Shown here in pieces: positions 2,406 through 5,548 of a stretch of 43,055 nt of DNA. Source of the stretch: Clostridia bacterium (GTDB taxonomy: Bacteria > Bacillota > Clostridia > Oscillospirales > CAG-272); the NCBI GenBank assembly GCA_017452545.1, contig JAFTME010000145.1, positions 1-43,055 of the forward strand. Reading direction: 5' to 3'. Made by a program: the position numbers and the translations under genes. The notes under the pieces were generated by a model, which saw only the letters and a list, made by a program, of their open reading frames with translations, searched no databases and was not told the origin of the DNA. Each line of letters starts with the position of its first letter. Positions within the stretch are counted from its first letter, which is position 1.

Positions 2406-3599
2406 TTAATGGAACAGACAAGCGCAAAGCAGACGTTTTAGCAGCTGGCGATAGGTAATGCGGGGGATATCCTCTGCGGCAACGATGGGTGTGCTGCCGA
2501 TGATCTCTCCGTTCAGGCGGTAGGTAACGCTGCCGAGGGGGGCACCCTTGGACAGGGGAGCGGCGATACATTCGGGCAGCTCTACGGTATATTCTACCTT
2601 ATCAAGCTGCGCCTTGGGGAGCGTGCAGCAAAAGGGAACAATCTCCGCCTTGACACTTGAATTGATACCTCCCGTAATGCGCACGGGCTCGGGGGCGGGG
2701 GTGTTGCTTTGATAGTTTGCGTAGTTAGCAAAGCCCCAATCGAGCAGCTTGGTCGCCTGTGCGTTGCGGATGTCGCGGTTTTCGGCGCCCATGATGACGC
2801 AAATGAGTGAGAGGCCGTCACGCGCGGCGGTCACAGAAACGCAGAAGCCTGCCTTTTCCGTTGAGCCTGTTTTCAGCCCGGTAGCGCCGCGATAAAAGCG
2901 AATGAGACGGTTGGTATTGGTCAAGCCAAAGGTGCCGTTCCGAATGGTATCCATCCAAACGGAGCTGTATTGCAAAATGGTTTTATGCTCGATCAGGGCA
3001 CGCGACATGATGGCAATATCACGGGCTGTGGTCAGATGGTGCTCTGCAGTATCATCAAGGCCGGTTGCGTTTTCAAACTGCGTGCCGGTCATGCCGAGCG
3101 ATGTAGCCTTTTCATTCATGCGGCGAACGAATGTATCGATATCTCCGGCGATATGCTCTGCCAGCGCGACGGCGGCATCGTTTGCGGAGCTGATAACGAC
3201 GCTTTTGAGCATATCCTCGCAGGACATGATCTCGCCCGGCTCCAGATAGATTTGCGAGCCGCCCATGCCGGCTGCCGTTTCGCTGACCGATATGGGATCG
3301 CTCAGCTGCAGCGTTCCACCGTCGATCGCTTCCATGACAAGCAGCAGCGTCATAATTTTGGTTACGGAAGCGGGCGGAAGGGCTTGATCGGCGTTTTGCT
3401 CGTACAGCACGGTGCCGGTTGCAGCATCCATCAGAATGGCGCTTTTACAGTTTAAGTTGAGGGAGTCTTGCTCGGCTGCAAATGATGCGGCGCCCGGGGC
3501 GGCGCTTGCCGATGGCAAGGCGGTGAGCAGCAGCGCAAGCATCAAAAAAAGCAGAACGCTGCGGCGAGCGGCGAGGTGACTTTGGGTGCGGGTGGTCAT
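2406..3599 (-). CDS. D-alanyl-D-alanine carboxypeptidase (peptidase S11, DacF/DacB type)
   Basis: A 397-residue exported penicillin-binding protein that removes the terminal D-Ala from peptidoglycan pentapeptides. The start is ATG 3599, preceded by AAGGAAGG; it is followed by a positively charged stretch, a hydrophobic core and an ASAA signal-peptidase site near residue 33. The three active-site motifs are intact: SVTK (Ser78, Lys81), SAN (Ser138-Asn140) and KTG (243-245). The C-terminal part has the small beta domain of S11 enzymes and ends in a basic amphipathic tail (LLKRLLCACLFH) that could tether it to the membrane. It lies 26 bases after the M14-like gene and is probably cotranscribed with it, which suggests joint action on the wall or the spore cortex. 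Which paralogue (vegetative or sporulation) is not decided by sequence alone. Confidence 0.93.
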   Translation of the reverse strand: MTTRTQSHLAARRSVLLFLMLALLLTALPSASAAPGAASFAAEQDSLNLNCKSAILMDAATGTVLYEQNADQALPPASVTKIMTLLLVMEAIDGGTLQLSDPISVSETAAGMGGSQIYLEPGEIMSCEDMLKSVVISSANDAAVALAEHIAGDIDTFVRRMNEKATSLGMTGTQFENATGLDDTAEHHLTTARDIAIMSRALIEHKTILQYSSVWMDTIRNGTFGLTNTNRLIRFYRGATGLKTGSTEKAGFCVSVTAARDGLSLICVIMGAENRDIRNAQATKLLDWGFANYANYQSNTPAPEPVRITGGINSSVKAEIVPFCCTLPKAQLDKVEYTVELPECIAAPLSKGAPLGSVTYRLNGEIIGSTPIVAAEDIPRITYRQLLKRLLCACLFH

Positions 3600-3625: not shown

Positions 3626-4588
3626 TCAGATCAGCTGTGGCGCTTCGAACAGCATCTGACGAATGGCAGCGTAGATGCAAAAATAATATTCCAGCGGTAC
3701 GGGAGTACTGCCGTATCCGCACGCCAGCCCGTAGGCAGGGACGCCGAGATGCTCGGCGCAAAAGGGAAGCAGCGTGGCATTTTGCTCCTCCGCAGCAATG
3801 GCGCGCAGCGGGTAGCCGCAAAGGCGCGAGAGAATTTTTCCGAGTGAGGCTGCTTGCGGATTGCTTGCCTGCTTATAATAGGATAACTGTTCTCCTTGGG
3901 TAGAGAGGCTGATCACCGCTCCGATCGTATCCTTATAAAATCGTAGATAATTGCAAAGATAGGCGATCTCGGGCTCGCTTTCCGGTGTGTCGGATGGAGC
4001 TGCGTTGCTTGCTTTGCCGTTCAAACCGCTTCTGCACGCGGCGCGATATTCGGGATAGCGGATGTCATAATTGTGCGTGAGGTCTACGCCGCGCGCGTTA
4101 CCGCACCATCGGGCGGGAGGAATGGAGGCAGTCAAGCAAGCCAAGCGAGAGTACAGGGGATTGTCGTTTTTGATACCGTTCAGGCAATAGTCGACACCGT
4201 CGGGATTGAGCATGGGAATAACCAGAATGCGGCGACGATGGAACAGATAGGGCAGGTAGGTGTTATAGATATGCCGTCCTGTCCGATAGCCCTCGGCATA
4301 TTCGTTGATAAAGCGCAAAAGCAGCACGCAGGAGAGCCAATCCACCCCTTGGTGCGTGCCGATCAAAACGGTCGTTGTTTCTCCCTCACCCAAGGAGATG
4401 GCGGGAAGGCTGCGCCCCAATATCGAGCTTCCCATGCTTTGCACCTGCACAAAAGGATAGCGTTCCTTAAAGCAATCCAGATATTGCAGCATTCTTGAGT
4501 GATCCACGGGAAGTGGATAGTCCAGCATTTTTTTCTCCGGGTCAAAGGGGAGGGCGCCTTGTTTTTCTTCTCTTTCTTTGTCGTTCAC
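3626..4588 (-). CDS. M14-like peptidase homologue with apparent loss of zinc and catalytic residues
   Basis: The 320-residue product is homologous to M14 zinc carboxypeptidases of the type that cut D-Glu-diaminopimelate bonds. Family segments are recognisable: LIGTHQGVDW (75-84), MLNPDGVDY (126-134), CGNARGVDL (162-170), SLSTQGEQLSYY (227-238) and VPAYGLACGYG (283-293). In active enzymes these read HxxE, then NPDG, then N-R-GVDLN-N, then HSQGE, then T-E-G. Here the first zinc His is Gln80 and its partner Glu is Asp83, the second zinc His is Ser229, and the catalytic Glu is Ala289, whereas the substrate-loop residues NPDG and N-R-GVDL are kept. There is no signal peptide. The start is GTG 4588, chosen because AAGGGAGA lies 6 bases upstream; a longer frame to 4858 lacks such a site. 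It leads into the D,D-carboxypeptidase gene. It may be a non-catalytic wall-peptide binding protein. Confidence 0.82.
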   Translation of the reverse strand: MNDKEREEKQGALPFDPEKKMLDYPLPVDHSRMLQYLDCFKERYPFVQVQSMGSSILGRSLPAISLGEGETTTVLIGTHQGVDWLSCVLLLRFINEYAEGYRTGRHIYNTYLPYLFHRRRILVIPMLNPDGVDYCLNGIKNDNPLYSRLACLTASIPPARWCGNARGVDLTHNYDIRYPEYRAACRSGLNGKASNAAPSDTPESEPEIAYLCNYLRFYKDTIGAVISLSTQGEQLSYYKQASNPQAASLGKILSRLCGYPLRAIAAEEQNATLLPFCAEHLGVPAYGLACGYGSTPVPLEYYFCIYAAIRQMLFEAPQLI

Positions 4589-4613
4589 CGAAATTCTCCC
4601 TTCTTTTTTTACC

Positions 4614-4701: not shown

Positions 4702-4738
4702 GTATCGGTAATCGATAAACGTCGAAAGGATGCCGAAG

Positions 4739-5548
4739 ATGACTTTGGAAACCTCCATAAACAATCCGATGCTGCGGCGACGGATGCTGCGCTTTACCGT
4801 CGGAATTTTCTCTTTGTATGCGATCTATTCTCTGATACTGGTGCCGCTCAATACGCATTTTGGCAGCAATATCGTATATGCGGGAACCATGCTCCTGGAG
4901 CTGACGGAGCTGCTCTACGAGATCATTGAGCTGTTGGCGTATGCTTACGCATTTGCGGCGCTGATCAATACGCGCTTTTGTTTTGGGCTGCGCGATGCTT
5001 TCTGCATCTTTTGGATCTATCTCGGTGCGGCGCTCTTCCGCTACGTATCCATCTTTTTGATCTCCGGGTATATGAGCGGTATCAATATGTCCAATCTTTG
5101 GTTGGAGCTGCTCTTCCTTCTGGCCTACGTCTTACTGGATGCCACACAGATGATCGTGGTGTTCGTGGGCGCACATCTGCTTTGCCTTACGTACGAGCGT
5201 GTATTTACCGTGCGTGCCAAGGCGCAGGCAGCCCGCGGTGAGCCAGTCAAGGATAAATGCGCGTACGTTGTGCCATATGGCGGAACGCTTTCAATGAAAA
5301 ATCCGCTGCAGGCCTCTGCCGTCCTTTGCGGAATCGTTATTCTTTTGGCACGTGTGATCGGCCGTATCATTTACGACGTCTCCTACGGTGCGCCGACCGG
5401 TGCGGCAGACGTTGCCTGGATGGTATTTTATTATCTCGGCGATATTACCGTATCCGTTTTGTGCTGTGCCTTGATCATGTTGATCATCCGTCGGATGGAT
5501 TGCAGGACCGCAGAGGAGTGCGCGGCATCGGACACAAAAATAAAATAA
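4739..5548 (+). CDS. Polytopic membrane protein, function unknown
   Basis: A 269-residue protein dominated by about six hydrophobic helices: near residues 20-45, 60-80, 85-110, 120-155, 190-215 and 225-255. A short charged cytoplasmic loop (ERVFTVRAKAQAARGEPVKDK) separates the fourth and fifth. I see no transporter or enzyme motif and recognise no family. ATG 4739 is chosen over ATG 4730 because GAAAGG lies 9 bases upstream of the former and abuts the latter with no spacing. It is divergent from the M14-like gene, with 150 bases between the two start codons, and is followed by its own terminator, so it is a single-gene unit. Confidence 0.8.
   Translation: MTLETSINNPMLRRRMLRFTVGIFSLYAIYSLILVPLNTHFGSNIVYAGTMLLELTELLYEIIELLAYAYAFAALINTRFCFGLRDAFCIFWIYLGAALFRYVSIFLISGYMSGINMSNLWLELLFLLAYVLLDATQMIVVFVGAHLLCLTYERVFTVRAKAQAARGEPVKDKCAYVVPYGGTLSMKNPLQASAVLCGIVILLARVIGRIIYDVSYGAPTGAADVAWMVFYYLGDITVSVLCCALIMLIIRRMDCRTAEECAASDTKIK

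Follow-up and report, generated by a model that had tools for sequence, protein, structure and literature searches.

The gene at 3626..4588 on the minus strand of the window (the whole 43,055-nucleotide stretch of DNA analysed here) encodes a protein with the predicted fold of an M14 carboxypeptidase, in which the three zinc ligands and the catalytic Glu have all been replaced. Judging from its residues, this protein is very unlikely to work as an enzyme by the M14 mechanism. Sequence comparison with related gut bacteria indicates that the catalytic machinery of the same gene has been lost several separate times, with the gene retained. The reading that we favour, and to which we give about an even chance, is that the window protein is a cytosolic dead M14 fold that arose in place and was kept for a non-catalytic binding or scaffold role, with a membrane protein, or a ligand sensed for that protein, as its likeliest client.

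Fold and active site of the window protein

The gene and the codons of the altered site are as follows.

3626..4588, minus strand: M14-fold pseudo-peptidase, 320 aa, GTG start, without signal peptide
~4596..4603, minus strand: Shine-Dalgarno-like GAAGGGAG ahead of the M14 GTG start, read off the sequence
4349..4351, minus strand: codon of Gln80, the zinc His of HxxE in 121/121 intact orthologues
4340..4342, minus strand: codon of Asp83, the zinc Glu of HxxE in 121/121 intact orthologues
4076..4078, minus strand: codon of Thr171, Asn in 121/121 intact orthologues and aligned with Asn144 of carboxypeptidase A (CPA)
3902..3904, minus strand: codon of Ser229, the second zinc His in 121/121 intact orthologues
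3722..3724, minus strand: codon of Ala289, the catalytic Glu in 121/121 intact orthologues

An upstream in-frame extension of the reading frame was considered and rejected, since in the alignment with congeners the relatives begin near the same place. A hydrophobic start is absent from the window protein and from 101 of the 102 orthologue frames tested. The protein is matched by Pfam PF00246 (E 1.6e-19, 71 bits, cut-off 21.6) and by none of the NCBIfam profiles. Its AlphaFold2 model, built with 79 aligned sequences, has a pLDDT of 93.1 and a pTM of 0.92 (95.0 and 0.93 for the control model of an intact congener). The best Foldseek match is carboxypeptidase T for both proteins, and VIA-align places the window model on carboxypeptidase B (1zli_A) with Z 32.6 and rmsd 2.3 over 272 residues. 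The structure prediction proposed as a check in the initial annotation, which was made from the sequence alone, thus gives a confident carboxypeptidase fold, and the window protein is confidently predicted to be a full-length M14 fold of the carboxypeptidase A/B/T alpha/beta type. Residues 80, 83, 229 and 289 are put on the zinc site by sequence and profile alignment and by the overall fold match, rather than by distances.

The quartet at positions 80/83/229/289 reads H-E-H-E in the 121 intact orthologues and Q-D-S-A in the window protein (codons checked), as the initial annotation had claimed. An orthologue is called intact by definition if it has the full H-E-H-E quartet, and the independent point is that other conserved positions follow the quartet. 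At 49 positions conserved in at least 95% of the intact orthologues, the window protein is changed at 16, against 0 (77 rows), 1 (26), 2 (11), 3 (5) or 4 (2) losses per intact orthologue, so that the change in the active site is more than chance. The losses are clustered, affecting 9/11 active-site positions and 7/38 other conserved positions (Fisher p 0.0002, for a set of site positions picked after the losses had been seen in part). Counting as active site only the positions aligned to seven CPA residues (which we take to be His69, Glu72, Asn144, Arg145, His196, Thr268 and Glu270), the losses are 6/7 and 10/42.

Beyond the quartet, N171 has become Thr, G271, G272, D275, W276, T287 (two positions ahead of the catalytic Glu) and N295 are altered, and the YGGxxDW strip is gone. 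By alignment, N171 corresponds to what we take to be the carboxylate-binding Asn144 of CPA, and Ala289 occupies the position of, presumably, its catalytic Glu270. With N171T, T287, G271, G272 and D275 among the losses, the substrate side is eroded too. The earlier statement that the substrate-side motifs remain thus holds for NPDG and R-GVDL and fails for these other positions. NPDG and R-GVDL, together with W161, N164 and ESEPE, which are also kept, look like elements of the fold rather than of peptide binding, since nearly all other degenerate copies keep them.

Recurrence in the family and fate of the gene

An M14 profile matched 224 of the 395 genomes of the family. Together with the window, 160 stretches from other genomes were surveyed (161 in all), of which 145 have an M14 frame and 16 lack one. 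The first 100 came mainly from the highest-ranking matches, the next 20 from around membrane genes, and the last 40 mostly from lower-scoring M14 matches, chosen after a low score had proved to be tied to lost residues. The 145 orthologous loci comprise 121 with the full quartet, 23 degenerate ones and one (L217) cut by a contig end; because the sample is non-random and enriched for low scores, 23/145 is not an estimate of frequency. Degenerate copies are found in the window, in four g18 species (two of which are truncated at a contig end but show the loss of both HxxE ligands), in g55 (L148, L165, L193 and L195), in g9 (L167), in nine species of g60, in two of g70 and in one each of g66 and g92. 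Within the family, the annotation 'M14 family metallopeptidase' would mislabel some of these genes. At a further locus, L083, an in-frame TAG interrupts the M14 frame of genome G069, with the catalytic residues kept in both halves.

A tree of 82 rows, made without the four catalytic columns, has 7 changes of state, of which at least 5 are forced by well supported branches. None of its 200 bootstrap trees puts the degenerate group on one side of a branch, in a bootstrap that had not settled and with the placing of L199, on a very long branch, unsure. A quick tree gave 6 changes, 6 of them forced, and an earlier tree (81 rows, 8 degenerate) gave 4 and 4; near-identical intact rows, L083 and L217 were left out of the trees. 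The nine degenerate g60 species form a clade. The changes of state are read as losses because the regain of four catalytic residues is unlikely.

The degenerate copies share features beyond the quartet. The Asn at position 171 is lost in 22/22 copies readable there, and the fold core is kept at D130 (23/23), N164 (22/22), N173 (22/22) and E207 (23/23). Position 83 has lost its Glu in 11 copies (10 Asp, 1 Ser) and retains it in 12, so that a carboxylate is favoured there. At position 231, in the HTQGE motif, 16 of the 20 readable degenerate copies have Gly; Gln is found in 118/121 intact orthologues and also in the window copy.

The genus of the window's species consists of six genomes, all of which have an M14 orthologue, with an intact site in all five congeners, so that within the genus the loss is the change of a single lineage. 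The window copy is sister to the intact copy of G001 (support 100/98 in the tree without catalytic columns), with an end branch of 0.74 against 0.26. With the other congeners as outgroup, the changes unique to the window and to its sister are 52/20 in the M14 gene, 15/9 in the neighbouring S11 gene, 5/6 in the membrane protein, 6/6 in GPI and 6/5 in P412. The acceleration on the window branch is specific to the M14 gene, and its neighbours show little or none. A search for a second genome of the window's species found none.

These comparisons bear on two parts of the initial annotation. The proposal of a non-catalytic M14 homologue is supported, and is extended to the family, where the same kind of protein appears repeatedly and is conserved. 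The proposal of a conserved pseudo-enzyme, against which intact homologues in sister species had been named as evidence, does not stand within the genus, where such homologues are found in 5/5 congeners; across the family, degenerate copies occur at 23 loci, that of the window among them.

For five pairs of degenerate copies from other genera, dN/dS (NG86) is 0.048, 0.083, 0.112, 0.194 and 0.244, and for the four computable of six intact pairs tried it is 0.021, 0.096, 0.102 and 0.132. The degenerate copies of these pairs are thus under purifying selection, which is perhaps a little relaxed. Between the window copy and its sister, identity is 0.35 at fourfold sites (nearly saturated) and 0.51 in the protein. 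In simulations that let the sister gene drift neutrally to this level of protein identity, 0 of 200 frames stayed open, with a mean of 8.6 stops. The open frame of the window copy despite near-saturation therefore shows constraint over most of its branch, not necessarily after the catalytic loss.

When 16 genomes were searched with PF00246, eight of the 23 degenerate-bearing ones were covered, and just one M14 gene was found in seven of these eight, the window genome included. The exception is G391, with a second M14 whose motifs read intact. The eight genomes are 67-98% complete, so that a missed paralogue is possible in some. In the seven, the losses took place in situ, without duplication. 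Since no other M14 is present in these 7/8 genomes, regulation of a live M14 sister is mostly not the role of the dead copy. For many of the pseudoenzymes described, the genome also encodes an active relative at another locus; here what is seemingly the sole M14 gene of the genome goes dead in place, in several lineages, with close relatives intact.

Neighbouring genes

Two genes flank the M14 gene in the window.

2406..3599, minus strand: S11 D-alanyl-D-alanine carboxypeptidase with signal peptide and SxxK/SxN/KTG motifs, 26 bp downstream of M14
4730..5548, plus strand: divergent multi-pass membrane protein (P0003) with 7 hydrophobic segments, head to head with M14

The S11 gene lies directly after M14 in 6/6 genomes of the genus and only there. 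In g60, three intact loci have S11, GPI and P412 upstream of M14. In the rest of the family, the flanks taken contain no S11 or only a distant one, and at the degenerate loci compared from other genera they contain none. A small protein encoded at 412-819, which begins in the manner of a P-loop (GIKGTGKTKT) and has no more than weak AAA matches in Pfam, accompanies GPI and S11 both within the genus and at three loci of g60.

The membrane gene is more widely associated with M14, lying beside it on the opposite strand in 80 of the 101 loci of the first survey. It adjoins M14 in 23/23 degenerate and 85/120 intact loci (Fisher p 0.001, for rows that are not independent). Counted by origins, there are 7 linked origins, expected by chance with a probability of about 0.14 (0.755^7), and the link of the membrane gene to degeneracy is weak by this count. 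Members of the membrane family are present in 223/395 genomes of the family; many of these genomes have no M14 match, which suggests an independent role for the membrane gene. Among 16 M14-less loci the gene has no constant alternative partner, the neighbours (named by eye) being pyrH-like, ruvC-like, YfhO-like and others. It is found without an adjoining M14 in G229, which belongs to the genus of the four-species degenerate group, and in G303. At the G229 locus (L185) a YfhO-like gene is near the membrane gene and M14 is absent between them, as if deleted.

A Pfam search with P0003 gave no match. One weak match to PalH (E 0.0086) among 38 aligned members of the membrane family was taken as chance. 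The family has a C-terminal consensus motif like RIxYDIxxGxP...D...M..YY..DI. A promoter scan between the divergent M14 and membrane genes found nothing.

Possible roles and related systems

In the favoured reading, an active M14 orthologue would have lost catalysis in place, without duplication, on the branch to the window's species. The M14 protein would have been retained through a non-catalytic binding or scaffold role, either gained or present from the start, and its peptidase activity would matter only in some species. The likeliest client would be the product of the adjoining membrane gene, or a ligand sensed on behalf of that protein. Losses that recur in place while purifying selection continues are most simply explained by a non-catalytic job, and loss that recurs with the gene kept suggests a second job for which catalysis is not needed. 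A scaffold or ligand-reporting role for the membrane protein is a first guess, because an M14 protein without signal peptide lies beside a membrane gene. Against this partnership, the membrane gene shows no co-acceleration on the window branch (5/6 unique changes). Continued function of the window copy, with the membrane protein as partner, is our inference. It is conceivable, though rather unlikely, that a hitherto undescribed module of envelope sensing or signalling in this clostridial family is made up of the M14 protein and the 7-TM protein, with the M14 fold as receptor or scaffold and peptidase activity as an option; such a module would explain why catalysis was repeatedly dropped and the protein kept.

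The main alternative is relaxed constraint, in which the pathway is dispensable, the catalytic residues go first and the gene is deleted later, so that the window copy would be decaying and still open. This is possible, with a chance well short of even. The faster evolution on the window branch fits such decay, as do the end branches of L148 and L167, longer than those of their intact sisters. So does the presence of three states in g55: intact (L078, L079, L092), degenerate (L148, L165, L193, L195) and M14-less (L186-L192, L194). A further point for decay is G229, with the membrane gene and no M14 in a genus of four degenerate species. Decay is harder to reconcile with the dN/dS of 0.05-0.24 in five pairs of degenerate copies, with a clade of nine degenerate species in one genus, with the fold core at D130, N164, N173 and E207 that degenerate copies keep, and with a window copy without a stop codon at near-saturated synonymous sites. 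If catalysis were altered rather than lost, Q80 and D83 could hold the metal, or other residues could rebuild the site. A precedent for Gln as a zinc ligand is named for Helicobacter Csd4 in the title of a paper in the reference list of PMC5053510, and the predominance of Asp among the E83 losses (10/11), with Glu kept in 12 copies, points the same way. The window protein, however, is without His229, the general base Glu289, T287 and N171, and we regard altered catalysis as improbable.

In the initial annotation, the M14 protein was proposed to bind wall peptides and perhaps to regulate or target the S11 D,D-carboxypeptidase encoded next to it. The short spacing on the same strand (the S11 start is 26 bp downstream) and the adjacency in all six genomes of the genus speak for such a pairing. 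However, the signal peptide is on S11 (by sequence) and none is on M14, and the residue aligned to the carboxylate-binding Asn is lost in all readable degenerate copies. The same change was also to be sought beside S11 genes; five of the six S11-adjacent M14 copies in the genus are intact, and the degenerate loci of other genera are without S11 within the flanks taken. With an exported S11, an M14 that lacks a signal peptide and the same S11 neighbour in the five intact congeners, the S11 link is no explanation, and we give this proposal very little probability. An assembly or sequencing artefact might be suspected in a fragmented assembly (159 contigs, 90% complete). Against this, a single open frame flanked by conserved neighbours carries changes at 16 conserved positions, and like changes recur in other genomes, which makes an artefact extremely unlikely.

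No bacterial M14 pseudopeptidase was found in the open-access literature searched. The review PMC11266112 describes the eukaryotic M14 pseudopeptidases AEBP1/ACLP, CPXM1, CPXM2, CPD domain III and Ecm14, which, like the window protein, have the M14 fold with zinc ligands and/or Glu270 replaced, and which are kept for non-catalytic roles. The window protein differs from this set in being bacterial and without signal peptide, and in belonging to a series of repeated in-place losses with no other M14 in 7/8 genomes. The degenerate M23 (LytM) factors EnvC, NlpD, DipM and Csd2, according to PMC9662197, are dead folds of peptidoglycan peptidases that act by protein-protein contacts; they differ in family and fold, and here no partner enzyme is identified. 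In Clostridioides difficile, CspC and CspA are pseudoproteases kept for sensing or stability, as stated in PMC6636752; they are clostridial, as is the window protein, but belong to the subtilisin family and coexist in the genome with an active sister, CspB.

The recurrence in the family amounts to a natural experiment, in which live and dead orthologues that share their neighbours can be paired for a direct test of a non-catalytic function of a bacterial M14 protein. Compared with MpaA, a cytosolic M14 murein-peptide amidase (NCBIfam NF007897), the window protein is without an NCBIfam match and its catalytic residues are gone, and an intact congener, without signal peptide, scores a weak 24 bits against the equivalog cut-off of 157.
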